From an uncultured candidate division Zixibacteria bacterium (lineage in GTDB: Bacteria > Zixibacteria > MSB-5A5 > GN15 > FEB-12): a DNA stretch of 13,780 nucleotides. Below the pieces are notes generated by a model, which made no database searches, was not told where the DNA came from, and saw only the letters and a program-made list of their open reading frames with translations. Within the stretch, counting starts at the first letter, position 1, and every line of letters starts with the position of its first letter. Positions 158 through 13,780 of this stretch are shown one piece after another. Position numbers and translations under genes: made by a program. The DNA lies in contig CAJVYT010000068.1 of NCBI GenBank assembly GCA_913009765.1, positions 1 to 13,780 on the forward strand, in the 5' to 3' direction.

Positions 158-845
158 GATGTAAAAAGCCTACATAGGGATCAAGACCGACACCCTGTAA
201 TGCTGAAGAGCACTCATGTGTAACAAGTGTGTATACATATGACAGAAGTGCGTTTACTGGATCAGTTGGTGGGCGGCGAACTCTACCACCAAAAACAAAG
301 CCACTGCCTCGTAACAATTCGTTAAAAGCACCAAAATACGTACTGGCAGCATCGCCTTCTATACCCATGGCCTCACTAACTGATTGTGCATGTTGAGCAC
401 GACGTAAACTTACTGCCAGTTTAGAAACAGCCCCACCCAATGATGCATTTTCTCCGTGATTCCGAATCTCCCTCATAAGCACAGACCGGCCATTAGCAAT
501 TTTTGCAGCGACCATAAGCCGTGCAATACTTATTGATTTTTCTTCACTATCAGCCCAGCGATACTGGGCACGTCGCAACAAGACATTACCTGTTTGCTTG
601 CCTTGTACACGGGCAAGAAATTTCCCGTATTCCGTATAAAAAGCCAGGCCAATTCCCTGTTCGCCACAATAGCCCATAAGGAAAGGTGATACTGATACCT
701 GCCCAAAGCAAAGAATATTAGCAATGCTAATAGCAGGAAACTGTCCAAGCTTATCCTTACCCTGCTTAATCACGATGGTTTCACGTTCTTTATGTAAGTA
801 ACTTTCCTGACGAGTTACATAAAGGGTGTTGAGTAGTTTCTTCAT
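158..845 (-). CDS. cas1: CRISPR-associated endonuclease Cas1 (3'-truncated by contig end)
   Basis: Cas1 is the integrase of CRISPR adaptation. With Cas2 it inserts new spacers at the leader end of the array. About 229 genuine residues remain of a protein usually near 340. The family core is visible: the catalytic Glu163 in the [11 protein letters not shown] motif, and [10 protein letters not shown] ending in the second metal ligand His229, where the contig stops. The last active-site acidic residue and the C-terminal helices are missing because the assembly ends, not because of a mutation. The start is ATG at 845, sharing an ATGA overlap with the stop of the Bro-N gene. No clear Shine-Dalgarno sequence precedes it, so translation probably depends on coupling to that gene. 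cas2 is expected next but lies outside the window. Confidence 0.95.
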
Positions 846-1720
846 GGCTTTTTGCCTGAAGTTTTTTTTCTACTTGCCCTTTTGGTTTTCCTGATAACCT
901 TATTATCTGCTGAAGGTAAGTAATTATTTGAGGTGGTCACTTTTTTACCTGTTTTGGCTTCCAACTCCTTACGTGCACTTTTAGCGATCCCGCCACCCGT
1001 TTTAGCGGCTGTTTTGTTTTCATCCATACCTCTCGCAACGTCACTCTCTGCAATCTGCCGTGTCGATAATTCAGCAAGTGCTGTAAAAATTAGTTCTGCC
1101 TCGCTCATATGATCACGCAGATTTTGGCTTTTTAATCCTTTTAGTGTCTTATGGTCTTTTACACTTACTCCAGACCATTCCTGGTGGATGATATTTGTGA
1201 GAATAGCGAATTCCTCGCCTTGTTTGATCTCGTGGTTACTCCAGTAATCTGTGAGTTTATTGCGAGTTTCCTGCCCCGTCATACGTTGTTGAATCCATTT
1301 TTCGCTACGGCCATGTTTCTGCCAGGTTTCTCTGGCGCGATTGAGTGATTTTGCTGGATCGGCCATCTCCTGCATTCGCTCATAACCCACCTTGGCCAGC
1401 CAGAGCTTGATTGGTTCGGCTTTTGGGCTGGGTACAGATTGCACCAGGCGCAGCAGGGTTTCGGCAGTGGCGACATCTGTAAGCCGTTGTTTTCCATCAG
1501 TTGCCGTCATTTTCAACCGGTTACAATTTGTAACCACTTCACTCCCTTCCTTTTTTAGTCGATTTTTTAATACTTTCCAATAATTTCTGGCTGCCTGGTA
1601 GTCAGCTTGCTGGGTCAATACCTGCACTATGTCAATCACCGAAAACCACCAGATTTCCAACTCTTCATCATAAATTCGGCGAATCTCGTAATTCTCAAAC
1701 AAAGTCATATCAGTTTTCAT
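842..1720 (-). CDS. Bro-N / DinD-like phage antirepressor-family protein inside the cas operon
   Basis: This 292-residue protein has an N-terminal Bro-N-like DNA-binding domain (roughly residues 5-115). Its hallmarks are [12 protein letters not shown] near residue 25 and [20 protein letters not shown] near residue 97. A DinD/antirepressor-like helical C-terminal half follows (ENLRDH-type motif, here [19 protein letters not shown]), then a lysine-rich tail. In phages and mobile elements such proteins act as antirepressors or damage-response factors. The role here is unknown. I chose ATG 1720 over an upstream GTG at 1729 because a GGGAG ribosome site sits 8 nt before it (1729-1733). The gene overlaps the end of cas4 by 11 bases and its stop overlaps the cas1 start by four. 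It is therefore fully embedded in the adaptation cassette, which is unusual, and it may be co-regulated with or modulate Cas4-Cas1. That last point is inference. Confidence 0.85.
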
Positions 1721-2360
1721 TTGAATCACTCCCTGTTAATTCTGTAAAAAGTCCCGCAATGTAAGCTCCCGAATGATCGCGCCGAAAAGTATCTGGTCCA
1801 CATAAATCCACCAATGAGCAGGCTTTGCAGCGCTTCTTTTGATCAGTGGGTGGCGGGGTGCTGCCGGATGCCAATATTTTATGTGCGCCTTCAATGGCCG
1901 CACGTGTTACACCCCGCAATACATCATCAAACAATACAGGTTCCCGTTTTCTCACCTGCCAGTACCACAAAGCGCCCTCATCAATGTGTACTTCACGCAT
2001 TTCTTCCAGGCACAACGCCTGGGCACAGAGCTGAATTTTATCCCAGTCTTCAATCTTGGGCTTGCCACGTTTATATTCCACAGGGAAGTATTTAGTTGGC
2101 GGCTTGCCTTCTATTTCCAGCAAATCGAGCTTACCCGTGAGTTGCAATTTGTGAGATTTTACGGCTACTCCACGCTCAAAGCGCACATCACCTCGTTGCT
2201 CTGGTTCACAGCTATCGACACGTTCATGCAATAGCTTGCCATGGGCGGTAAAAAAGTTATCATCCCAGACCTGCTCAAGATGAATCAGCGCAAACTGACG
2301 CGGGCAGTAGGCATAGTGCTGCAATGCAGAGATAAGGATTATTTGATCGGTATCTACCAT
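1710..2360 (-). CDS. cas4: CRISPR-associated exonuclease Cas4
   Basis: Cas4 is a RecB-family nuclease with an iron-sulfur cluster. It trims prespacers and selects PAM-bearing ends for Cas1-Cas2. The 216-residue sequence shows the four cluster cysteines (Cys19 in the N-terminal YAYCPRQF motif; Cys178, Cys181 and Cys187 in [10 protein letters not shown]). It also has the nuclease core with His45, Asp79 in TGKLDLLE, and Glu95 and Lys97 in PVEYKRGK. Length and motif order are normal for Cas4 of type I-C/I-B systems. The start is ATG 2360, 25 bases after the RhuM gene's stop, with only a weak purine-rich site in front. Its stop lies inside the start region of the Bro-N gene. Normally cas1 would follow directly. 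Confidence 0.95.
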
Positions 2361-2385: not shown

Positions 2386-3426
2386 CTATTCTAGATCGCC
2401 ATTTTCTTTTTTCTGTAAGCTGATCAACTTGTCAAAGTCAGACTCAAACAACCTGTCCTGCACAATGCGGTATTTCTCAAATTCTAACTCAGCAAAGTTT
2501 TTAGCTACCTCAGCCCTGATTTCTCCTGCATTCTCCAGGATTTCCTTTTCATTGAAATGAAGAAATGCATCAAGTTTTTTAACCCAATCGTGCATACTCA
2601 TGACTTGCATGTTCCTTGCCTGCATTTCTGCATAATCCAGGTACATTGTCACAATACGGTTTAACCCATCCAGTTCTGCTTTGTTAAGGTAATTTTTAGC
2701 AACCGAAACATCGAGTTTTCGAACTCGGCCTGAAGGCGCATTTTTCCATGAGGTAAGGCCCATGTTCTGTTGTTGGCTATCAGCCCGTTCATGGATAATT
2801 TCTGCAGCCGTCTGCCGTGTAATAGCCCAATGTAATTTGTTTTGTACGGTAGCAAAAAAACTTTTTGTTTCCTCCGTATCCTTATTGTAGTCCACGCTGC
2901 ACTGGGCATAGATGTCTGTAATTTTCTGGTAAAAGCGACGTTCACTAGAGCGAATGTCTCGAATACGTTCCAGTTGTTCTTCAAAGTAATCTTCGCCAAA
3001 GAAACGATCAGGGTTCTTAAGTCGCTCATCATCCATGGTAAAACCCTTGATAATGTACTCTTTAAGACGCTCAGTTGCCCAAATACGAAATTGTGTCGCC
3101 TGTATTGAGTTAACACGATAACCCACTGAGATAATGGCATCCAGATTATAAAAATTAGTCTTATAGCTTTTACCATCCTGAGCAGTTAGTTCCATTTTGG
3201 AACTAACTGAATCCTTCACCAGCTCACCAGATGCAAAAATATTATTCAAGTGTTTGGTGATTGCAGGCCGCTGCACCCCAAAAAGCTCGGCAATTTTATC
3301 CTGAGTCAGCCAAATATTCTCATCCTTTAGAAATATCTCAACCTTCACTTTATTATCTGGCGTGGTATAGAGAAGGAACTCAGTAAAAGAATTTTCAAGG
3401 CTATTGTTAGTTTTTATTCTGCTCAT
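2386..3426 (-). CDS. RhuM-family (virulence RhuM-like) protein inside the cas operon
   Basis: The 346-residue protein belongs to the RhuM family, first named from a Salmonella pathogenicity island and widespread in mobile and defence islands; its biochemical role is not settled. The N-terminal part contains a helix-turn-helix-like segment (WLTQDKIAELFGVQRPAITK, about 39-58). The family signature follows at about residues 92-136 (NLDAIISVGYRVNS, then QATQFRIWAT and IIKGFTMDDERL). The C-terminal half is helical and charged. ATG 3426 has a good ribosome site (AAGGAC at 3434-3439, 7 nt spacing). It stands between cas3 and cas4, same strand. The 70-base gap from cas3 is by far the largest in the operon, which suggests a later insertion. 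A role in regulating or accompanying the CRISPR system is possible but not shown. Confidence 0.88.
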   Translation of the reverse strand: MSRIKTNNSLENSFTEFLLYTTPDNKVKVEIFLKDENIWLTQDKIAELFGVQRPAITKHLNNIFASGELVKDSVSSKMELTAQDGKSYKTNFYNLDAIISVGYRVNSIQATQFRIWATERLKEYIIKGFTMDDERLKNPDRFFGEDYFEEQLERIRDIRSSERRFYQKITDIYAQCSVDYNKDTEETKSFFATVQNKLHWAITRQTAAEIIHERADSQQQNMGLTSWKNAPSGRVRKLDVSVAKNYLNKAELDGLNRIVTMYLDYAEMQARNMQVMSMHDWVKKLDAFLHFNEKEILENAGEIRAEVAKNFAELEFEKYRIVQDRLFESDFDKLISLQKKENGDLE

Positions 3427-3496: not shown

Positions 3497-5863
3497 TTAA
3501 ATAATACCAGATTTTGAATTAATCAAATCAGGCATAATGCCAAGAAAACTAGGGTCGTATTCATAAGCATCTGTCCATGAGAAAATATTATCTTGAGAGC
3601 AATTAACAATAGGCCGTAAGTTTAATTTCGCTATTTTCTGCATCCAAAGTTGTACGGAGTTATTTTGCAAGTCTTGCCAATTCACAGGAAATCCATGTTC
3701 AAGTTTTTCTACTAATTTGGCGTCAATAATAACCGTAGCTGTATCGGAATCGATAACTCGATAAGTTGTTGATACCTCCTGGAACCCCTGTTTTTGTTCT
3801 TCAGACAACAGTAGTTCTGATTTATTTCTTTTCTCTGGAAACCGAGAAAGCTCTTTACGAATAGCTTTACTACAAAGCTCACTACTATCCACTTCGTCAC
3901 TAACTATTTCTGACCACAGGTTATTCAAAATATCTGATGATTCAATAAAACCCGGATGATGATTGAGACCATCTTCAGAAAAAATAGAAAAATCAAATAA
4001 CCGACCAAAAGATCGTATACCATGACGATTAATTCTCCCTGACACTTGCAAAAAACTGGTTACTGAACAAGTTTCTCGAAAACCAATGGCGAAGTCCAAA
4101 TCGACACCTGCTTCAACACAACTGGTGGCAATTAAATACCAGGGACGGTGATTCCAGTCGCTATCACCTTGTCTATGGATTATTTCCTCCAGCATTCTAT
4201 CTCGATCCTTGGGTGCCAGAACAGTCGATAGATGCAATACGACTTTATTGGATAATTTATTTTTCTTATCATCTAAGCTTTTTGCCAACGTATCTGCAAT
4301 AACCGCTGCCGATTGCACTGTATTTAAAATCACCAAACACGATGGTTTGTCTTGATCGATAAATTCACCCCAAGTTTCATCTGATTGTATACGTTCAACT
4401 AGATCATCGCGCTTCAAAGGATTTCTAATTCGGTCAAAAATAACGCGTTGCCTTTCAAATTGTTGTGTTTTTATCCTCAATGATTCAGGCAGTAGGTCAG
4501 GCAAGGTACGCATACCTTCTTCACTAACTAAATAATCGTCTTTCCAAAATTTGACCATTGATCCTGATGAAAAAACAATGTTGCATCGCCAAATATCGAC
4601 TAACTGTCTCATCCAATACCAACTGACATTTAACAGTTCAGCAGGCAGACAAGCATGCGATTCATCAATAAATATGGCAGAACCAACCACATTATGTAGC
4701 TTTCGAAGTTTTGAGGGGTTGGATGCAGCGAGTGTTTCAAAAAACTGTACAGCAGTGGTAACTACAATGGGCGCTTGCCAACTAGCGGCATATTTGCGCA
4801 TATCTTTATCGCTGAACTCTGCTTTATGATGATGCGCAACAACAACTGATGTAGCATCTTCATTATTTAGAACGATAGCTTTGCGTAAAACTTTGACGGT
4901 TTGATCTATAATGTTAGAAAATGGTGCAATGACGAAAATTCTGCTGGAATTATCTTTAATTGCACAACGAAGCAAGTAAGCCATTACCGAGGTTGTTTTT
5001 CCTAAGCCTACCGGTGCTGAACAAGCAACTAGACGAGATTCAAATAAGTCTGTATCAAAACAGTGTCGATAAAATTCTCCCCGCATCAGGTTACGATCGC
5101 TTTGAGGGTCACTGCTCGAATCAACTATGCTTAAAATATACCTATCCAAAGCCAATAAACGTTGTGTCCAGCAAGTTTTAGCTGGCTTAAAACGTGTCAT
5201 GAGAATATCTTGGCTATAGCAAGCAGCACTGCTGTGATCAGCATCGACTAAACAAGACAACATCAAACGAGACGTTAAACTACTGGAGAGTAATTGCAAA
5301 CTAAGCTGCGGCCATTGGCCACAAGATTCAATCTGTCTCTGTTTATAAACTTCAATCCTTTCATTCGTGGTGATTATAGCCTCTTTGTGCTTATCAAAAT
5401 CAGCCGTGAGTTTGTCTCGGTGATGGCGCCGACCTCTTAGGCTGTAAGGCGACAAAGTTAGATGGGATTTTTTCCGTAGTTGTTTGATGAAATATTTTTC
5501 AGTTTTTTTACTCGGTAACCCTGGTGCATGATGACCGCGGATCAACCAGGCCAACAACTCATTTTTCATTTCATCAGCAACTGCAACCCCTGCATCAATA
5601 TGATCCACTGGCAAACGACCTGAATCCACGCCACGAAATATTCGTTGAATTGACTCATCCAGTTTACCCATGTCGTGCAACATCAGTGCTGCTTTGAATG
5701 TTATTCGTAGCTCAAGTTTTTCCGAATCAACCAACGTATAAAATGACAGCAGGTAGTCAAATAAATCTAATCCATAACCCAACACCTCCTCAATATGATC
5801 AGTATATCGATGAGCTTCCAGCTCAGGTTTTGCCCTAGGAGGTGTATGAGCAAGGTAATACAT
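3497..5863 (-). CDS. cas3: Cas3 helicase-nuclease (HD domain plus superfamily 2 helicase)
   Basis: Cas3 is recruited by target-bound Cascade to unwind and degrade DNA. In the 788-residue protein an N-terminal HD nuclease shows His23, the His63-Asp64 pair (MLHDMGK), His88, His111-His112 (RGHHAP) and an Asp near 207-209 (LVDADH). The helicase shows Walker A VGLGKTT (285-291), motif II DESH (400-403), a motif III variant FSSGS (431-435, usually SAT), ATSCVEAGVDLDF (579-591) and motif VI QVSGRINRHG (606-615). Size and domain order are normal for a fused Cas3, and no key residue is evidently lost. The ATG shares one base with the cas7 stop (TAATG), indicating translational coupling. Its place after cas7 rather than at the operon head is unusual for type I-C. 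Confidence 0.95.
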   Translation of the reverse strand: MYYLAHTPPRAKPELEAHRYTDHIEEVLGYGLDLFDYLLSFYTLVDSEKLELRITFKAALMLHDMGKLDESIQRIFRGVDSGRLPVDHIDAGVAVADEMKNELLAWLIRGHHAPGLPSKKTEKYFIKQLRKKSHLTLSPYSLRGRRHHRDKLTADFDKHKEAIITTNERIEVYKQRQIESCGQWPQLSLQLLSSSLTSRLMLSCLVDADHSSAACYSQDILMTRFKPAKTCWTQRLLALDRYILSIVDSSSDPQSDRNLMRGEFYRHCFDTDLFESRLVACSAPVGLGKTTSVMAYLLRCAIKDNSSRIFVIAPFSNIIDQTVKVLRKAIVLNNEDATSVVVAHHHKAEFSDKDMRKYAASWQAPIVVTTAVQFFETLAASNPSKLRKLHNVVGSAIFIDESHACLPAELLNVSWYWMRQLVDIWRCNIVFSSGSMVKFWKDDYLVSEEGMRTLPDLLPESLRIKTQQFERQRVIFDRIRNPLKRDDLVERIQSDETWGEFIDQDKPSCLVILNTVQSAAVIADTLAKSLDDKKNKLSNKVVLHLSTVLAPKDRDRMLEEIIHRQGDSDWNHRPWYLIATSCVEAGVDLDFAIGFRETCSVTSFLQVSGRINRHGIRSFGRLFDFSIFSEDGLNHHPGFIESSDILNNLWSEIVSDEVDSSELCSKAIRKELSRFPEKRNKSELLLSEEQKQGFQEVSTTYRVIDSDTATVIIDAKLVEKLEHGFPVNWQDLQNNSVQLWMQKIAKLNLRPIVNCSQDNIFSWTDAYEYDPSFLGIMPDLINSKSGII

Positions 5864-6765
5864 TATTCGTTCGCTAGATCAAGAACATCTTTAAACCGAT
5901 CTAACAGATCACCCAAATCGTCTCGCTCAGGAATAGCGTAATCATTTGCTGATGTAGATTGTGTCAACCCTGATTTTAATTTAGGCGTTAAGGCATTAAT
6001 AAACAGATGCTCAGGACAGGAACCCAAGGTATTTTTATGCTCAGCAAACCACGCATGTAAAACTGAGATTTGTGGACGAATTGCTGAAGCTGTATGCTGA
6101 TAAACATACGGCAGCATGAATTTGAGTAGCTCTAAATCTTCGGCAGTTGCCCCCGTTTTTTTAGCAATACTTGGATTCACAAAAATAGGAATGCAATAGA
6201 TGCCGTGCTGCACCACTCGAAAGGCCAAAGGTGCCATACCACGATCTTTACCAGCCTCTACACCAGACTTGTTGGTATTGGTCATCCGAACAACCTCAAT
6301 AGGTGCAATCGACATTCCCACGCCCATTTGGGTTGTTCCTGTATTAATTAAATGAGCATAACCCCCTTCTTCTTTTTTCTTCTTTTGCTCTTTGCTTAGT
6401 TCAGAGTCTTTCAATGATTCCAAAAAGGTATTGCCAAACATGCGAGCATCCCAGTAGGTTTTCATAAACTCTTCTTTATCCATTGCTTTGATGGCATCTC
6501 GATCACGCCCCTGCTCTTCCAATATTTTGAATTGATTTTTCGTTTCTGCACCCAGATTTAGCTGCTTCTTGGCCACAGCAAAAACCTCAGAATCGTCACT
6601 AATTAAATCCCGTAACTTACGTTTCAGCGAAACAGGTGAGATCATTCCCAGGCCGTCTAGCTCACGAGTTCTTGGTTCTGATTCCATATCTGGATCACCA
6701 TTCGGGTTCGACATAGTGACATCTAAAACCAATAAGCCAACATGGCGATTAAAAGGTGCATTCAT
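5863..6765 (-). CDS. cas7: Cas7c/Csd2 backbone subunit of type I-C Cascade
   Basis: Cas7 forms the helical filament that holds the crRNA spacer in the Cascade complex. The 300-residue protein starts with the family's GLLVLDVTMSNPNGDPDMES segment, the Csd2/Csh2-type RAMP motif, and continues with RTRELDGLGMISPVSLKRKL (about 32-51). A lysine/glutamate-rich loop lies near residues 125-135, and a GTTQMGVGMSIAPIEVVRMT segment follows. Length is as usual for Cas7c. Its ATG overlaps the cas8 stop (ATGA) and it also has its own AAGGAG site (6773-6778, 7 nt spacing), consistent with the high copy number of this subunit in the complex. Confidence 0.95.
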   Translation of the reverse strand: MNAPFNRHVGLLVLDVTMSNPNGDPDMESEPRTRELDGLGMISPVSLKRKLRDLISDDSEVFAVAKKQLNLGAETKNQFKILEEQGRDRDAIKAMDKEEFMKTYWDARMFGNTFLESLKDSELSKEQKKKKEEGGYAHLINTGTTQMGVGMSIAPIEVVRMTNTNKSGVEAGKDRGMAPLAFRVVQHGIYCIPIFVNPSIAKKTGATAEDLELLKFMLPYVYQHTASAIRPQISVLHAWFAEHKNTLGSCPEHLFINALTPKLKSGLTQSTSANDYAIPERDDLGDLLDRFKDVLDLANE

Positions 6766-7193
6766 GAGTTTTCTCCTTGATTATTACTTGATTCGGTTGA
6801 TGTTTTTTTCTGTTCAAAAGGGCGCCCCGCTAAATAGCCGAGCATTAGTTCGGCTTTGTATGTGTCGGAGTTGGCTATAGGGCTTGACAGGAATTCGTTT
6901 AAAGACTTGGCCTGTTTACTCATCCAGATTTGAGCAAAAATAGCCGCAGTTATCGCCTTATCTTCTGATCGAATATTTTTAGCCATTATTCGCTTAACCC
7001 ATGAGTCATAGGGTTTTCGACGAGTTGCTAAAATAGCCATCGCTCTAATCGGGTTTTGTAAGGCCATGCCATAAATCTGATTCCCTAGCAAAGAACTTGG
7101 AATATCACCTTTGCGTTCACTTTTGCAATAACCGATATGCAGCTCATCCATCGCAGAACATAACTGCCCTAGCTGAAAAGCAAAATCTTTCAT
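6762..7193 (-). CDS. cas11c: Probable Cas11c small subunit from an internal start in cas8c
   Basis: In type I-C and several other subtypes the small subunit Cas11 is produced by internal translation initiation near the 3' end of the cas8 gene. Here, in frame within cas8c, an ATG at 7193 (residue 565) is preceded by a perfect AAGGAG at 7200-7205 with 6 nt spacing. That site is better than the one for cas8c itself. The product would be 143 residues, starting MKDFAFQLGQLCSAMDELH, mostly helical, close to the size known for Cas11c. Cas11 lines the belly of Cascade and helps hold the non-target strand. The call is inference from family knowledge plus the ribosome site; expression is not shown. Confidence 0.75.
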   Translation of the reverse strand: MKDFAFQLGQLCSAMDELHIGYCKSERKGDIPSSLLGNQIYGMALQNPIRAMAILATRRKPYDSWVKRIMAKNIRSEDKAITAAIFAQIWMSKQAKSLNEFLSSPIANSDTYKAELMLGYLAGRPFEQKKTSTESSNNQGENS

Positions 7194-8885
7194 ATAGTTC
7201 TCCTTTCTTCGTCCAATTTTAAATAAAAGTACAGTCATCAAAGTGACCGCACTCAAAGCTTGTGTGTTATTTATAATGTTGGTTTTTACATGAGCCTTGG
7301 CTTGCAATACCCACTGCAACCTGCTCAAAGCACAATAGTTTAATAAGGGCTGATATTGCTCCGCGATACGTTGCAAACTACGTTTTGCCAAAGCTTGGTT
7401 ATCTTGCCCAAGAAATAACTTCATCACATCAGCAAAGCTAATGCCGGGCAGATTTGTAGTGGCACTGCCATCACGAATATATTTTTGACGTGACAAATAC
7501 ATCACCTGCTGCGGGCTAATCGCCCAGGGTGAACACATCTGTTTTTCTTTTTTGTGTGTCAGAGCAAGTAGTTTGAAACTGGGCGAATTTTGACAAGCCT
7601 GTTTCCACTGTTCAGCCGCATGTTTCAATTTCCCAACTTTGGTCGTCGTACTGAAATTGATTTTACGGTTAGCTTTATCTAAAACTATGATCTCGGCAAA
7701 ATCGACCACCGCATCAAGACTCAAGTTCTTGCCCCTGAACGAGGCTAGCACCGACTCGGTTGCATCAAGGTAATCATCAAAATCATCGACTTCTGACTCA
7801 CCTGTAATCAAGGGTGTAAGCGTCAGATCCCATTCCTCCTTGCAATAGGCCAGCAACAAACTGGGTGATGCACCAAGGGTTGAGGGCAGCTTTGCCCAAT
7901 TTTTATCTTTGAATTTTGCTGAATTAATAAAGGCGATACTGGCCGCCAGCTCCTGGCTAAGTTTGTCGGAAATAGGAAAAGCCGCCCCGCCCGAAACACC
8001 GTATCGTTTAACTGTAGGGCCGCTGGTTGTAGCATTTTTAGCAAATAGAGTAGTGCTTCCTACAATGTTTAATTTTTCTTTTGGAAATATATCATATACA
8101 ACCTGCCCAATATTTCCTGTTAGGGCGCACTCGTCATTTCGAATCTTCTTATTGGTTTTCGATTCTGCTGCGAATAATGCCAAAGAAAGACCCGCGACCC
8201 TATCTCTGGATGATGCGTAGATATCGATGTCAACGTCCGGAAAATAATCGAGCATCAGTGTAACTCGCTTACCATCTTTAATTTTACCTTTTGACGTTAC
8301 ATCATCGCCAAATAACAGGGTGCAAATATCTTTTAAAGTGTATTTATCTGCCCCTTGTAGAGCTGATTCAATCAACAGGCTTGCAACTTGCTCAAGTATC
8401 TCTACGCCAGTTTCTGTTTGGCTGTATCGTTCAAATAACTGATAAACTTCTTTGCAATCATCATTGCCAGCTAATTGATCTTTACGCGCCAACACTTGCT
8501 TGCGATAACTAGGCCAATTACCGATAAGGGATAAATCAACTAAATAATTTTGTGAGGCGCATTTAATTAATTTTCGATAATCTTCTTCGTCAGGGTTGCT
8601 GATTTGTTTTTTCCAGGCAAGATATTCCACATGCCCCTCTGCCAAGAGCAAGGGATAAACAACCTTAACCGCCGGAAACTGGTTTTTGTTACCATTCCCC
8701 AGTGACCAGCTATTCTGTATTTGCTCTTTGGTCATTAATTTAACCGAGGTCACTTGGCCTTGCTTATCCAGCATCACTCGAAATGTTGTACCCATCCCAG
8801 GCGATTGAATATCGTTATGTTTAATCGCTGGCGATTCTCCGATAGCTTTCAATCCCTGATAGATTGAATAGAGTTCATTCAGCAT
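6762..8885 (-). CDS. cas8c: Cas8c/Csd1-like large subunit of type I-C Cascade
   Basis: Cas8c recognises the PAM and positions target DNA in the type I-C complex. Identification rests on its place between cas5 and cas7, its size, and an N-terminus of Csd1 style (MLNELYSIYQGLKAIGES). The sequence is divergent and I see no short diagnostic motif. The frame is open up to 8951, but I chose ATG 8885. It overlaps the cas5 stop by 11 bases, has a G-rich ribosome site (AGGGGG about 9 nt before), and begins the recognisable N-terminus. At 707 residues it is somewhat longer than the 570-650 common for Cas8c. The C-terminal 143 residues probably are also made separately as Cas11c from an internal start. 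Confidence 0.88.
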   Translation of the reverse strand: MLNELYSIYQGLKAIGESPAIKHNDIQSPGMGTTFRVMLDKQGQVTSVKLMTKEQIQNSWSLGNGNKNQFPAVKVVYPLLLAEGHVEYLAWKKQISNPDEEDYRKLIKCASQNYLVDLSLIGNWPSYRKQVLARKDQLAGNDDCKEVYQLFERYSQTETGVEILEQVASLLIESALQGADKYTLKDICTLLFGDDVTSKGKIKDGKRVTLMLDYFPDVDIDIYASSRDRVAGLSLALFAAESKTNKKIRNDECALTGNIGQVVYDIFPKEKLNIVGSTTLFAKNATTSGPTVKRYGVSGGAAFPISDKLSQELAASIAFINSAKFKDKNWAKLPSTLGASPSLLLAYCKEEWDLTLTPLITGESEVDDFDDYLDATESVLASFRGKNLSLDAVVDFAEIIVLDKANRKINFSTTTKVGKLKHAAEQWKQACQNSPSFKLLALTHKKEKQMCSPWAISPQQVMYLSRQKYIRDGSATTNLPGISFADVMKLFLGQDNQALAKRSLQRIAEQYQPLLNYCALSRLQWVLQAKAHVKTNIINNTQALSAVTLMTVLLFKIGRRKENYMKDFAFQLGQLCSAMDELHIGYCKSERKGDIPSSLLGNQIYGMALQNPIRAMAILATRRKPYDSWVKRIMAKNIRSEDKAITAAIFAQIWMSKQAKSLNEFLSSPIANSDTYKAELMLGYLAGRPFEQKKTSTESSNNQGENS
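7200..7205 (-). promoter_or_regulatory. Internal Shine-Dalgarno site for Cas11c
   Basis: On the minus strand this reads AAGGAG, ending six bases before the in-frame ATG at 7193 inside cas8c. A perfect ribosome site at this position in a coding sequence is unlikely to be chance, given that the family uses internal initiation here. Confidence 0.75.
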
Positions 8886-9531
8886 AATTAAACGCCCCCT
8901 TTTTAATCCAGACTTCTTCACCTTGCTGGAATCGTGGTTTGTACCGTCCATTCACGGCTTTATCAAAAACCTGATTAAGCACTGATACTAAATCCAAATT
9001 AATTTCAGTATCAACCTCAGTTGCATCAGGAAGAGATTCATCATCACGAAGTGGCCCCCAATAACTGGGTACAAACTCATTCCAGCCAAGCGCAGGTGTT
9101 TTGTGACATTGTCCTTTTTTTAATCGACGTTTAAAGATTGCTTCCAAAGCATGACAAGGGTTGTTGCCATTTTTTAGATGCTGACCACTGCCATTCTCGA
9201 CAACACCATAAATCCGATAACAAACATCAGTCAAGATTAAACTCGAAAATTGAAAGTTAACCTTTTTCTTATCCTTCAGTGGGCCACGATAATTATTGGT
9301 ATAACATTGAAAATTCATCACGCCACCCGATGAGTCTTTCCTCTTGCATATCTCCACTTTCGTAGGTCGAATCCATGCCTTGCCATCATTAAAAAATGCC
9401 ACCGATTCAAATATTCCCTTCACTGCAGACCATGTTGGTACTGGGTAGCTTGTCGGTGTTGCCCCAGTATCAGGTCGAGACCACATTGCAAAAGGGCCGG
9501 ATATTTCCATTGCTATTTCGTATTTGCTCAT
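8875..9531 (-). CDS. cas5c: Cas5c (Cas5d) subunit, expected crRNA-processing protein of type I-C
   Basis: In type I-C, Cas5 replaces Cas6 as the endoribonuclease that cuts pre-crRNA, and it caps the 5' handle in Cascade. The 218-residue protein carries the Cas5c signature TSYPVPTWSAVKGIFESV (27-44) and the later IFKRRLKKGQCHKTPALGWN block (132-151), which resembles the family's RRxxKGQC..P.LG.REF region. No other processing nuclease is present. By position against the Bacillus halodurans Cas5d triad (Tyr46, Lys116, His117, from memory), the histidine seems kept (His127), but the Tyr and Lys positions look like Ala45 and Cys126. The catalytic set may therefore differ. ATG 9531 has an AAGGAG site (9539-9544). 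It is the first gene of the operon. Confidence 0.92.
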   Translation of the reverse strand: MSKYEIAMEISGPFAMWSRPDTGATPTSYPVPTWSAVKGIFESVAFFNDGKAWIRPTKVEICKRKDSSGGVMNFQCYTNNYRGPLKDKKKVNFQFSSLILTDVCYRIYGVVENGSGQHLKNGNNPCHALEAIFKRRLKKGQCHKTPALGWNEFVPSYWGPLRDDESLPDATEVDTEINLDLVSVLNQVFDKAVNGRYKPRFQQGEEVWIKKGAFNYAE

Positions 9532-9623: not shown

Positions 9624-10811
9624 TCATTCGCTTTCCGGTTTTGTTAACAACTGAACATCCCGCCAGGACAACAATCGCGCATCCGAACGCTGCTGGGTTG
9701 TTTCGCCGCCGTAAACCAATTGTTTTGTAATGCTGCGTTCACGGTTTTTATTTTGTTTCAGGTTGGCAAAGGTGTTCAGGTTTTTGAAGAAATAGGTGTT
9801 GACGGTGGCGGACGATTTTATTTCGATGGCGTTGAGTTGTTCGCCACAGTCTATGATCAAGTCTATTTCTAGTCCGCGTGTTTCTCTGTAGTGATACAGA
9901 TCAGGTTGTTCTCCATTGTGAACCAGTGCTTTGCAGGCTTCTGCTGCAACCCAGCTTTCAAAAATTGCACCTCTTTGTGGATGATGACGAAGTTGTTCTG
10001 GTTCTCGTATGCCGAGCAGATAGCAAACCAGGCCACTATCTAGAAAATGTAATTTGGGCGCCTTGATAACCTGTTTCCTTACGTTAGTGTGCCACGCGGG
10101 TAGTTGTTGAATGATGTAACTGGTTTCGAGGATGGATAACCATGCGCGGGCGGTGTTATGGCTTATACCAGCATCGTTACCGAGTGACGATAAATTTATT
10201 TCCTGTGCGGTGCGGCCTGCGCAGAGTTTCAGAAAGCCTGAAAAATGCTGCAAGTCACTAACGTTAATGACTTGACGGACATCTCGCTGGATGTAGGTGG
10301 CCACATAATCGGCCAGCCATTGTTGTGGGGGGATTTTCTGGTCGTAAATTCTGGGGTAGGCACCTTGCCATAGTGTGGTGAAGAATTCATCGGGTGCATT
10401 CTTAAAGGCGAGCAATTCTTCCCGATTGGGTGGCAATAAAGTGAGTATGCCGCAGCGCCCTGCCAATGATTGTGCTATCGATTGTGATAAGCCGAAATGC
10501 TGTGAGCCGGTGAGTATGAACCTTCCGGGTTCTGGCCGGTCGTCCACATCGCTTTGCATATAATTGAGTAGTTCAGGCGCATGCTGAACTTCGTCGATAA
10601 TGGCACCTTCGGAATATTCGGCCAGAAATCCTCTGGGGTCATTATGTGCGTAGTCTCTATTGTCTATGGCTTCCAGCGAGACATAGGCTTTGTCTGGAAA
10701 ACTTGCCCGGCACAGGGTGGTTTTACCGGACTGGCGTGGACCGGTAACCACCACAACGGGGTAATAAGTCGCGAGTTCTGTTATTTTTGTTGCTAATTTA
10801 CGCGGTATCAT
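9624..10811 (-). CDS. AAA ATPase with DUF4143 domain
   Basis: The 395-residue protein is a typical member of the AAA_14/DUF4143 family of unknown cellular role, common in bacteria and often in accessory islands. It shows Walker A GPRQSGKT (24-31), Walker B AIIDEVQ (70-76) and a sensor-like LTGSQ (100-104). A winged-helix-like segment lies near 195-235. The C-terminal DUF4143 domain carries a restriction-nuclease-like pattern: Glu315 and Asp317 in LEIDLII, Glu330 and Lys332 in AIEIKSS. The length is complete for the family. It lies 92 bases upstream of cas5 in the same direction but has no known link to CRISPR. No strong ribosome site precedes ATG 10811. Confidence 0.9.
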   Translation of the reverse strand: MIPRKLATKITELATYYPVVVVTGPRQSGKTTLCRASFPDKAYVSLEAIDNRDYAHNDPRGFLAEYSEGAIIDEVQHAPELLNYMQSDVDDRPEPGRFILTGSQHFGLSQSIAQSLAGRCGILTLLPPNREELLAFKNAPDEFFTTLWQGAYPRIYDQKIPPQQWLADYVATYIQRDVRQVINVSDLQHFSGFLKLCAGRTAQEINLSSLGNDAGISHNTARAWLSILETSYIIQQLPAWHTNVRKQVIKAPKLHFLDSGLVCYLLGIREPEQLRHHPQRGAIFESWVAAEACKALVHNGEQPDLYHYRETRGLEIDLIIDCGEQLNAIEIKSSATVNTYFFKNLNTFANLKQNKNRERSITKQLVYGGETTQQRSDARLLSWRDVQLLTKPESE

Positions 10812-11082: not shown

Positions 11083-11181
11083 TACAACAATCTCATCCAG
11101 TCGGACAGTCAAAAGGCTCACGATTTTTGCATCCGCAAAAAATCGCGCCCCTTTTGCCTGCCGCTGATGAGGGCGTTAGCC
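11083..11181 (+). other. Integron attC recombination site
   Basis: The outer boxes pair as AAC (11086-11088) with GTT (11175-11177). After a 2-base mismatch the arms pair almost fully: CTCATC/GATGAG, AG/CT, CGG/CCG, CAG/CTG, CAAAAGG/CCTTTTG. Three bases of the left arm stay unpaired (C11098, T11101, A11105), the extrahelical bases that the integrase reads to choose the bottom strand. A central hairpin (11121-11145) closes the structure. Strand orientation fits a cassette gene on the plus strand upstream. The core GTTAGCC departs slightly from GTTRRRY. This architecture is diagnostic of attC. Confidence 0.85.
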
Positions 11182-11182
11182 C

Positions 11183-11210
11183 TTGCAAAAAAAACAATAA
11201 CTTGTACAAT
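11183..11210 (+). promoter_or_regulatory. Putative promoter and operator of the toxin-antitoxin cassette
   Basis: A -35-like TTGCAA (11183-11188) and a -10-like TACAAT (11205-11210) are separated by 16 bases and end 7 bases before the toxin ATG, so a transcript would be nearly leaderless. A palindrome TTGTACAA (11202-11209) overlaps the -10. Such a dyad could be the operator for autoregulation by the toxin-antitoxin complex. Evidence is sequence pattern only. Confidence 0.45.
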
Positions 11211-11217
11211 TGTCTGC

Positions 11218-11607
11218 ATGAAGATTATATCTGACACAAATATCCTATTGGCTGTAGTATTTAATGAACCTGAAAAAGCAAATATTATCCAGCTTTCATC
11301 TGGAAACGAAGCAATAGGACCAGAAATACTTCCATATGAAGCTGGAAATGCTTTATCAGCAATGATTAAAAGAAGACAAGTAACACATAAAGAGGCGTTG
11401 GATGCGTATAAATTACTAAGCAATATCCCAGTGCGCTTACTTAGTGTAGATATTATTCAAGCATTAAAAATAGCAATGGACTTTAACATTTATGCATATG
11501 ATGCTTACTTTCTACAGTGTGCTATAGAGCAAGCCAGCCCCTTACTTACGCTTGATAAAGGCATGAAAAAAGTAGCAAAAGCACTAAATATTGAAGTTAT
11601 GGAGTAA
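11218..11607 (+). CDS. PIN-domain toxin, VapC-like ribonuclease
   Basis: PIN-domain toxins of type II toxin-antitoxin pairs cut specific RNAs such as initiator tRNA or rRNA when freed from their antitoxin. The 129-residue protein has the acidic active-site set in order: Asp6 in MKIISDTNILLA, Glu41 in PYEAGNAL, Asp95 in YAYDAYFLQCA and Asp113 in LLTLDKGM. The frame is open further upstream, but ATG 11218 gives the standard PIN start and the upstream codons lie within the attC and promoter. It is the first gene of an integron cassette, with the antitoxin directly downstream after 4 bases. This toxin-first order is less common. Confidence 0.88.
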   Translation: MKIISDTNILLAVVFNEPEKANIIQLSSGNEAIGPEILPYEAGNALSAMIKRRQVTHKEALDAYKLLSNIPVRLLSVDIIQALKIAMDFNIYAYDAYFLQCAIEQASPLLTLDKGMKKVAKALNIEVME

Positions 11608-11611
11608 TAAA

Positions 11612-11830
11612 ATGAAAGTATTCACATACTCAGAAGCACGTCAAAATCTGTCTAAACTCCTGATACTCGCACAAAAAGAGGAAGTAGAAATACGCAGAAG
11701 AGATGGGACAATATTTTCTTTAAAATCAAAAAAAAAGAAGAGACCATCTCCTTTTGATGTCCCAGGAATTCAGACAAAAGTAACCACAGAAGATATTCTT
11801 GACGCAGTTAAAGAATCAAGATTGGGCTAA
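11612..11830 (+). CDS. Phd/YefM-family antitoxin
   Basis: The 72-residue protein begins MKVFTYSEARQNLSKLLILA, the typical Phd/YefM fold start, followed by EVEIRRRDGTIFSL. Its C-terminal part after the KSKKKKRPSPFDVPG stretch would wrap around and inhibit the PIN toxin. The N-terminal part would bind DNA as a dimer and repress the promoter. ATG 11612 is 4 bases after the toxin stop, with GGAG at 11601-11604 as ribosome site; an upstream in-frame TTG is not needed. Its stop codon TAA lies in the left box of the following attC-like site, as is usual in compact cassettes. Confidence 0.85.
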   Translation: MKVFTYSEARQNLSKLLILAQKEEVEIRRRDGTIFSLKSKKKKRPSPFDVPGIQTKVTTEDILDAVKESRLG

Positions 11831-11892: not shown

Positions 11893-11896
11893 GAAA

Positions 11897-12001
11897 AGGG
11901 GGACGGAGTTAAAATAATAAAATAAGGACTTTCGTGCGGTGAATAACAATGAAAACGGAAAGAGAGGATATCTTATCTTATTATTTTAACTCCGTCCCCC
12001 T
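11897..12001. repeat. Long inverted repeat (REP/MITE-like hairpin)
   Basis: The arms 11897-11926 and 11972-12001 are 30 bases with one mismatch, separated by 45 bases. Each arm begins outermost with AGGGGGACGGAGTTAAAATA. The 14-base unit CGTCCCCCTCTTTT is repeated at 11993-12006 and 12008-12021. The element lies about 175 bases before a RAYT transposase remnant. RAYTs mobilise palindromic REP elements, so this is likely a REP/REPIN- or MITE-like unit of the same family. It could fold as a strong RNA hairpin, but no clean T run makes it a typical terminator. Confidence 0.7.
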
Positions 12002-12021
12002 CTTTTACGTCCCCCTCTTTT

Positions 12022-12175
12022 CACTGGCGTTTTGTTAATGATGGTATCTTGTCTTGCATTGCTTTCTCCTGATTAAATAGTCAGAGAGAGCTTCGTGCAA
12101 GGTGAATCAGAATAATAGTGTGTGGTTTATTTTGCGCTTACTATAAAACAACTCAAATCCACACGGAGGTGGACA
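12022..12175. other. Non-coding stretch between the inverted repeat and the RAYT remnant
   Basis: No gene is seen here. The last bases hold a strong GGAGGT ribosome site (12165-12170), 5 bases before the RAYT ATG at 12176. The stretch probably belongs to the RAYT element's upstream region. Confidence 0.4.
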
Positions 12176-12457
12176 ATGGCTCGACTACCAAGATTTACGA
12201 TACCAGGTGTTCCGCAACACATCATACAACGTGGTAATAATCGCCAGCCCTGTTTCTACGCAAAGGAAGATTATAGGCGATATCATAACGATTTAACTGA
12301 GCCAATAAAAACCAGGCGATTGTTCATGCCTATGTGTTCATGAAGACATAAGCTAAATACGCATAGAATAGAGGAAATGACAAATAGACAAACACGCCCA
12401 CGGTCTTTAGGTCGTCCTAGGGTAGAAGAAGATGAAGCTGTATACTATTTTATTTAG
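12176..12457 (+). pseudogene. REP-associated tyrosine transposase (RAYT, IS200-like) with internal deletion
   Basis: Full RAYTs (about 220-240 residues) are Y1-type single-strand transposases that act on REP palindromes. The N-terminus is intact: MARLPRFTIPGVPQHIIQRG followed by NNRQPCFYAKEDYRRY. A shifted frame then reads AIVHAYVFMK, matching the segment just before the HVH metal site. The middle, including the HuH and catalytic tyrosine regions, is missing. After a stop at 12341 the same frame as the N-terminus resumes with the family-type C-terminus IEEMTNRQTRPRSLGRPRVE (ending TAG 12455-12457). It is therefore a decayed copy with a large internal deletion and a frameshift, and it cannot encode a working transposase. 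Confidence 0.82.
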
Positions 12458-12797: not shown

Positions 12798-12833
12798 ATG
12801 AATTTTCGGGATAAACATAAAAGAGATCTGATA

Positions 12834-13604
12834 ATGCACAGTAGAAAAATTACAATACAGTGCCAGCTTCTGATGTTAATGGTTATCGGCTTTGGCTTGA
12901 GTACCCACACCGCAGCGCAGGCAGCCAGTGACGCAGGTCTTGCACAAGAACTTACCAACCCTATTGCAAACCTCGTGACGATTCCGATCCAGATGAACTA
13001 TGACAACAACATTGGCCTGAATGATAAGGGGAGTAAAATCATCACTAACATCCAGCCGGTAATCCCCGTTGATGTAAATGAAGACTGGACACTTATAACC
13101 CGAACCATAGTTCCGATTATCTCTCAGGATAAAATATTTCCCGATGGAAGCTCTCAATTTGGCCTGGGTGATATCAATGAGCAATTATTCTTCTCGCCCA
13201 AAAAACCGACTTCCGGCGGTATAACCTGGGGTGTAGGGGCGGCTTTACTTCTACCAACGGCAACGGATTCCAAACTGGGCAGCAAGAAATTGGGCGCAGG
13301 GCCGTCAGTGGTCGCAATTACCATGCGTGGCCCCTGGACATTTGGTGCGATTGCAAACCATGTCTGGTCCTTTGCCGGCGATAAAGACCGCATCGATATC
13401 AGCAACACCTTTATGCAGCCCTTCATGGCTTACACCTGGCCAAATACATGGACTGTTTCCGCACAAACCGAAACTACCTACAACTGGAAACTCGAAGAGT
13501 GGGCCATACCGGTCAATGTCGCAGCCGCCAAACTGGTCAAATTCGGCAAAGTACCTGTCAGTCTACAAGCCGGTGTCGGTTACTGGCTGGAGTCTCCAAC
13601 AGCC
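12834..13604 (+). CDS. Outer-membrane beta-barrel transporter-like protein (3'-truncated by contig end)
   Basis: This resembles the gammaproteobacterial 'transporter' family related to the MetA-pathway phenol-degradation outer-membrane proteins; substrate is unknown. A signal peptide is visible (residues 1-30, cleavage after THTAAQA). The mature part has repeated amphipathic beta strands and family segments: NIQPVIPVDVNEDWTLITRT, SQFGLGDINEQLFFSPKKP, LGAGPSVVAIT and NHVWSFAGDKDRIDIS. About 257 genuine residues are present of roughly 280-290, so only the last strands are lost. ATG 12834, after an AAGAGA-like site, is preferred to ATG 12798 because it gives a standard signal peptide. The frame's apparent ending ARSEERRVGKECRSRWSPYH (after the final genuine Thr) is largely adapter translation. 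Confidence 0.85.
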
Positions 13605-13662
13605 AGATCGGAAGAGCGTCGTGTAGGGAAAGAGTGTAGATCTCGGTGGTCGCCGTATCATT
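13605..13662. other. Illumina P5/TruSeq adapter, reverse complement (contamination)
   Basis: The 58 bases from AGATCGGAAGAGCGTCGTGT to CGCCGTATCATT are the exact reverse complement of the adapter at the left end. They interrupt the outer-membrane protein gene. Genuine sequence ends at 13604. Confidence 0.98.
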
Positions 13663-13780
13663 AAAAAAAAAAATAAATAGAGTAAGAAAAATAAGGGAGT
13701 AGATCTTACATGTATGCCTTATCTAGCGCTCCTATGTTTGTATGAAACTGCTTTTCGCATTGATTTATCAACACTCCACA
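13663..13780. other. Artefact sequence outside the right adapter
   Basis: A poly-A run and low-complexity bases follow the adapter, as expected when a read passes beyond the end of its library fragment. No biological feature should be inferred. Confidence 0.9.

Follow-up and report, generated by a model that had tools for sequence, protein, structure and literature searches.

The window, a contig of 13,780 nucleotides (CAJVYT010000068.1) from an uncultured candidate division Zixibacteria bacterium, carries a type I-C operon of a CRISPR (clustered regularly interspaced short palindromic repeats) system in which a Bro-N domain gene of the defence candidate family PDC-S13 is embedded between cas4 and cas1. 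PDC-S13 probably belongs to the operon as an accessory defence gene and is not there by accident. The analysis shows its position, its recurrence, a low ratio of non-synonymous to synonymous substitution (dN/dS) and a match of its modelled fold to DdrC. The fuller reading, in which this embedded accessory gene encodes a two-domain protein of DdrC architecture that binds DNA breaks, serves dormancy or backup and is tied to Cas1, is held with slightly better than even confidence. What we infer beyond this is break binding, the dormancy or backup effect and a control by Cas proteins.

The PDC-S13 gene and its junctions

The gene lies where the preliminary description had placed it, overlapping the end of cas4 by exactly 11 nucleotides and the start of cas1 by exactly the four letters ATGA (Table 1). 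Its start codon is the ATG at 1720, and a GTG at 1729 opens the same frame; besides a putative ribosome site found by eye, the longest anti-Shine-Dalgarno match found upstream by script is GTGAT. Upstream of cas1 the longest such match is three nucleotides (AGG), in agreement with the earlier statement that cas1 has no ribosome site of its own. I-C sites empty of PDC-S13 mostly show a 4-nucleotide overlap between cas4 and cas1, which argues that coupling was retained at insertion and not created by it, and the missing ribosome site is probably ancestral. PDC-S13 and Cas1 are probably translated together from the cas operon. The further claim that the use of cas1 depends on PDC-S13 does not hold, since many loci have no such gene, or only a damaged one next to a cas1 whose frame is open.

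The 11-nucleotide overlap is identical to the letter in loci L071, L131, L132, L133 and L134 and in the relic of L136, so that the junction is no assembly artefact, a doubt raised at the outset; the identity also points to a single insertion which the window and these loci probably inherited. The overlap is present with changed letters in L135, and the PDC-S13 junctions of L072 differ from those of the window.

The protein matches Bro-N (Pfam PF02498; E 3.8e-8, 34.3 bits against a gathering cut-off of 25.6), a domain taken to be DNA-binding, and is matched over its full length (residues 3-279 of 292, E 6e-121) by the PADLOC hidden Markov model (HMM) of PDC-S13; it has at least 8000 homologues, and its place at cas4 and cas1, inside a known defence operon, is that of a family member. 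Of the earlier label 'Bro-N/DinD-like' the first half stands, the second applies only loosely, and the specific family is PDC-S13. Escherichia coli DinD, an SOS-induced inhibitor of RecA filaments, shares 26% identity with the window protein across 144 residues, and its C-terminal stretch is similar to PDC-S13 (hhalign E 3.7e-4, 102 columns, probability 36%). In E. coli the dinD gene sits between yicC and yicG. No NCBIfam model matches the PDC-S13 protein at E up to 10; the DinD equivalog (NF008573), which gives E. coli DinD itself 488 bits, is rejected on the same ground.

The assignment to an antirepressor family is doubtful as well. It would suit a prophage antirepressor-type regulator of the cas operon that was captured from a phage, an origin we regard as very improbable. 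The Bro-N domain is consistent with such a capture, as are a full-length match to PHROG 15286 (E 6e-94), BFVD structure hits among phage Bro-N and KilA-N proteins, and homologues in four phage records (best E 4e-84), two of which span 80% or more of the protein. Those four, however, are short unannotated faecal contigs of 37-52% identity out of 50,697 records, the query-normalised TM-score (TMq) is at most 0.36 among the 50 BFVD matches listed, and no phage genes were noticed around PDC-S13 in the window. A one-sequence scan of IMG/VR, which detects close relatives only, found no close relative, and the DdrC-like fold adds to the doubt about the label.

Recurrence around cas1

A Cas1-centred scan of genome contigs yielded the best 80 of at least 338 confirmed loci, which with the window and 30 loci from a class sample, less duplicates (L139 is L072, L143 is L110), form a survey of 109 I-C loci; it leans to the kin of the window, and its frequencies are therefore not population frequencies. 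PDC-S13 or a relic of it lies between cas4 and cas1 in 15 of them (the window, L071, L072, L131-L138, L141, L162, L170 and L191) and is full-length in six (the window, L072, L132, L135, L138 and L170). With just 15 of 109 loci, relics counted, a core component of I-C adaptation was rejected. A KilA-N gene stands between cas4 and the relic in L141, and a RhuM gene between PDC-S13 and cas1 in L191.

The class sample comprises 369 genomes, 42 of which have a PDC-S13 match at E <= 0.001; at the strict threshold of E <= 1e-40 there are 37 places in 30 genomes. Cas1c scores over its cut-off in 31 genomes (30 loci examined) and Cas1f in 41 (40 examined). Five of the 37 places lie within 3 kb of an I-C or I-F cas1 against 0.043 expected, which bears out the earlier view that the arrangement is more than a random insertion. 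Two I-C loci of this sample carry the gene between cas4 and cas1 (genomes G084, which is L071, and G240, which is L072), and three I-F loci carry it between cas1 and cas2-3 (G155, G228) or just upstream of cas1 (G339). A second set, 398 genomes drawn from the phylum and partly overlapping the first, gives a match in 37, and two of the 20 places examined are I-F (L219 and L222). The third subtype is I-B, found on the Arcobacter cloacae plasmid pACLO in the order cas5b-cas3-(ATP-binding protein)-cas4-(Bro-N)-cas1b-cas2 followed by at least 52 repeats, the Bro-N protein having 52% identity with that of the window over 262 residues. The search for the arrangement in distant species, which the preliminary description proposed, thus finds it around cas1 in three subtypes, and since it recurs in this way it is no peculiarity of one contig.

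In the tree the window protein belongs to a clade of 13 rows (support 99/95), 12 of which come from I-C or I-F loci and lie around cas1; the sole member off cas1, L092, is at a contig edge. Five of the 13 were picked for their cas1 or are the window itself; the other eight stem from searches centred on PDC-S13, and seven of them lie around cas1. The copies of L162, L170 and L191 (records named Deltaproteobacteria or Smithella) and of Arcobacter fall elsewhere in the tree, and strongly supported branches require at least three label changes, which may mean that the gene was gained three times, or gained once and lost twice. Several separate entries beside cas1 are likely but not proven; that there was more than one is argued by the three placements (between cas4 and cas1, between cas1 and cas2-3, and upstream of cas1). 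L071 shares 93% identity with the window in Cas1, 87% in PDC-S13, 79% in Cas4 and 26% in Cas7, so judging from sequence, cas4, PDC-S13 and cas1 seem to have moved as one cassette. Seven of 12 pairs have an estimable dS (1.1-1.9, rough) and give a PDC-S13 dN/dS of 0.04-0.07; the other five are saturated. Two of the seven pairs involve L071 and L134, which suggests that the truncation of their copies is probably recent. The PDC-S13 frame of L092 (495-1430) holds an in-frame insert (PVLSMVEG), presumably akin to a protein-coding palindromic repeat element.

Of the earlier interpretation, in which the gene may regulate or accompany adaptation, only the recurrence at cas1 is borne out, and PDC-S13 is not specific to adaptation, because homologues also adjoin type I restriction-modification (R-M) genes and sit outside defence operons on plasmids. 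Among 50 loci of the class and phylum samples, up to 13 have members of hsdM, hsdS or hsdR clusters within four open reading frames (ORFs) of PDC-S13 (the clusters are single-linkage, and ten of the up to 13 are labelled R-M in the trees); the rest are five I-F loci and others with mixed or unknown neighbours. Thirteen plasmid records have a PDC-S13 match and seven were examined; in the six besides pACLO the homologue is not inside a cas operon, and one has cas3 about 4 kb off. A dedicated adaptation factor, which would capture or protect DNA ends or nicks and hand prespacers to Cas4-Cas1-Cas2, or limit acquisition from self DNA, is a rather unlikely alternative. It would explain why nearly all CRISPR copies, in all three subtypes, lie at a cas1 junction (including those seven clade members), the coupling with cas1, and the conservation of cas4-PDC-S13-cas1 as a unit in L071 while the effector module differs, and the modelled DdrC-like fold would suit it. 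It is at odds with the 94 of 109 I-C loci that have no PDC-S13 between cas4 and cas1, even in a sample leaning to the window's kin, with the class sample, where two of 31 Cas1c genomes have it there, and with L134, where the PDC-S13 copy is truncated, cas1 is open and at least 42 repeats are present. A strict acquisition role is also disfavoured by how often copies decay and by the homologues in R-M loci and on plasmids.

Inserts, defined in the junction survey as gaps of at least 250 nucleotides, are found in I-C loci between cas7 and cas4 (33/89), cas3 and cas4 (5/6), cas7 and cas1 (3/5), cas1 and cas2 (4/107), cas3 and cas5 (12/82, mostly about 300 nucleotides) and cas4 and cas1 (24/103, made up of 12 with PDC-S13, two with RhuM alone, one with KilA-N and nine unlabelled), and are absent between cas5 and cas8 (0/91), cas8 and cas7 (0/95) and cas7 and cas3 (0/6). 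The 43 I-F loci, which include L219 and L222, chosen for carrying PDC-S13, have them between cas1 and cas2-3 (10/38; four PDC-S13, one KilA-N, five others) and cas2-3 and cas8f (10/28), and have none between cas8f and cas5f or cas5f and cas7f (0/28 each). With one locus per Cas1 cluster, inserts between the effector genes and cas4 stay high (9.3 of 25.3 junctions) and those between cas4 and cas1 drop to 1.5 of 28.7, which suggests that the latter are concentrated in large Cas1 clusters. Genes inserted on the flanks of cas4 include a ParE pair, a nucleotidyltransferase, a MazE-PIN pair, Zeta, Fic, YhcG, an MqsA-like/DUF4258 pair, DUF4160, HEAT-repeat and 23S intervening-sequence protein (IVP)-like proteins; two of 20 insert proteins scanned against Pfam had no match.

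This thinning, the frequent decay of PDC-S13 copies and the many unrelated genes at the same junctions are what a neutral or selfish hitch-hiker would leave, that is, a gene which lands at insert-tolerant junctions of an operon and spreads through selection on its host. Such an origin is nonetheless quite improbable, since dN/dS is low, albeit over rough and near-saturated dS, and adjacency to cas1 recurs far beyond chance. The identified inserts are also mostly of toxin or defence families, and the window shows neither an adjoining mobility gene nor a flanking repeat of at least 20 nucleotides.

Among the side observations of this survey, four I-C loci have four-helix-bundle/23S rRNA IVP-like genes adjoining cas4, those of L169 and L203 being under the Pfam cut-off when scanned and those of L192 and L197 labelled by eye. 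A helix-turn-helix gene, WYL-like by eye, lies between cas1 and cas2-3 in an I-F locus (L252, 2513-3484).

Fold and possible function of PDC-S13

The AlphaFold2 model of PDC-S13 predicts two domains, an N-terminal Bro-N domain and a C-terminal helical domain, and is assigned the same fold as DdrC, a DNA-damage-response protein of Deinococcus radiodurans (PDB 8u0g, 7udi, 7qvb), which would make DdrC its relative of solved fold, alike in overall architecture. The two differ in the arrangement of their domains, and a relation in sequence is undetectable. DdrC binds and stabilises DNA breaks, and to our knowledge it is not a CRISPR gene.

The likeliest mechanism would begin with phage infection, the nuclease action of Cas3 or Cas4, or acquisition itself, any of which may leave breaks or single strands. 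PDC-S13 would bind these and compact or stall the DNA, or block its repair, and the replication of both phage and cell would be slowed as a form of backup or dormancy, which might either buy time for acquisition or act once immunity fails. Embedding would tie the level of PDC-S13 to that of Cas1 and let the gene travel with the adaptation cassette. A more specific and still doubtful version is that a DdrC-like break-capture protein was recruited repeatedly, in I-B, I-C and I-F, for spacer acquisition, where it would hold invader DNA that has nicks or breaks for Cas1-Cas2 (and Cas4 in systems that have it), or hold replication still in the meantime.

Several observations weigh against an embedded accessory defence gene of this kind. 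Of the 15 I-C copies, nine are truncated, have a broken frame or survive as relics (counting L191, whose frame is open and whose middle fails to align), so that PDC-S13 is dispensable. A relic lies away from cas1, between cas7 and cas4, in L166, L185 and L193 hold pieces upstream of cas3, another gene or remnant separates PDC-S13 from cas1 in L191 and L219, and plasmid homologues occur outside defence operons. The match to DdrC is structural only: the whole-chain root-mean-square deviation of the model is 11.8-12.7 Å, the predicted TM-score is only 0.59, and a 52-sequence profile searched against PDB sequences at E up to 10 gave nothing below E 0.65, with DdrC absent. Inspection by eye showed no catalytic motif in PDC-S13, and there is no small antitoxin-like partner gene between cas4 and cas1 in the window, as a type II toxin-antitoxin pair would have. 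The accessory defence gene is still preferred, the low dN/dS and repeated cas1 adjacency disfavouring neutrality.

The PDC families, reportedly introduced in a 2024 preprint by Payne et al., are single genes embedded in defence operons, and by HMM three genes of the window belong to them (PDC-S13, the RhuM family PDC-S05 and PDC-S01). They are candidates by guilt of embedding, common, mostly unvalidated and for the most part awaiting antiphage validation, and the passages that describe them mention neither a preference for cas1 nor a DdrC-like fold (PMC12988326, PMC10855318). PDC-S13 stands out among such genes by its sharp preference for cas1 junctions in three subtypes, its relative of solved fold and its low dN/dS. 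Its position agrees with a proposal made in 2012, in which Cas1/Cas2 are coupled to toxins or dormancy factors (PMC3506569). Sister loci with an intact copy, a broken copy or none occur in nature, and with these as controls the proposal becomes directly testable. In the II-C system of Bacteroides fragilis an embedded gene likewise touches cas1, lying between it and cas9, but it encodes RhuM and not Bro-N (PMC5704556); RhuM has been suggested to be a toxin whose gene accompanies those of R-M systems (PMC3710099). PrrC and DarTG are also second defence genes in or near those of another system, and differ in being toxins of described activity with type I R-M hosts (PMC3710099, PMC12255303). CreTA addiction modules tie a toxic module to the CRISPR system that they guard, but consist of an RNA toxin and an RNA antitoxin which act through Cascade, with no protein (PMC9458426).

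The surrounding operon and contig

The I-C genes in view are cas3, cas5c, cas8c, cas7, cas4 and cas1, in the minus-strand order cas5c-cas8c-cas7-cas3-rhuM-cas4-[Bro-N]-cas1 (Table 1); the contig stops within cas1, leaving cas2 and the array out of view. The order of cas7 followed by cas3 is found at six junctions of the I-C survey. RhuM precedes cas4 in 14 of 109 I-C loci (eight copies are full-length, and the other six are relics, split or incomplete; the contigs of L131 and L134 do not reach the gene that precedes RhuM) and lies between cas4 and cas1 in three (L186, L191 and L200). In pACLO the ATP-binding protein gene occupies the slot between cas3 and cas4, and the AAA_14/DUF4143 gene of the window lies just upstream of cas5.

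Table 1. Features of the window around the PDC-S13 gene
Feature	Position	Strand	Basis
cas1 (type I-C), first 229 codons	159-845	-	TIGR03640 8e-91
ATGA stop/start overlap, PDC-S13/cas1 (cas1 start 845)	842-845	-	sequence
PDC-S13/Bro-N gene, 292 aa, uninterrupted frame, between cas4 and cas1	842-1720	-	ORF; Pfam; PADLOC; DdrC-like AlphaFold2 model
11-nt overlap, cas4 end/PDC-S13 start	1710-1720	-	sequence
cas4	1710-2360	-	profile matches
GGGAG, putative ribosome site (by eye), within cas4 3' end, 8 nt before ATG 1720	1729-1733	-	
RhuM gene (PDC-S05), second embedded gene, slot cas3/cas4	2386-3426	-	Pfam 9e-112; PADLOC
cas3, placed after cas7	3497-5863	-	profile matches
cas7 (Csd2-like)	5863-6765	-	profile matches
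cas8c	6762-8951	-	PADLOC Cas8c 1e-180
cas5c	8875-9531	-	profile matches
AAA_14/DUF4143 gene (PDC-S01), third defence candidate, upstream of operon	9624-10811	-	Pfam, PADLOC

The contig appears to come from a metagenome assembly and to carry adapter sequence at each end. Perfect inverted copies of 69 nucleotides, which we take to be Illumina adapter-like, lie at 90-158 and 13604-13672, followed by low-complexity or odd sequence, and the ends are probably artefacts which cut cas1 and a gene at 12798-13664. Because cas1 runs into this sequence (about 90-158) it has 229 codons only, and its TIGR03640 score is under the cut-off since the gene is cut short.

In genome G001, which otherwise matches the window, a contig stops inside rhuM at window position 3161, in the slot between the effector genes and cas4, where strain variation is possible. 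At about 12695 the same genome is 100% identical to the window on both sides and carries about 3.6 kb extra. At 11167-11830 a PIN-domain gene overlaps a small gene which by eye resembles a Phd-type antitoxin. At 11894-12004 and 12122-12343, arms of 33 nucleotides that are 94% complementary adjoin a short ORF, by eye like the remnant of a transposase associated with repetitive extragenic palindromic (REP) sequences, and stretches nearby recur across several contigs of G001.
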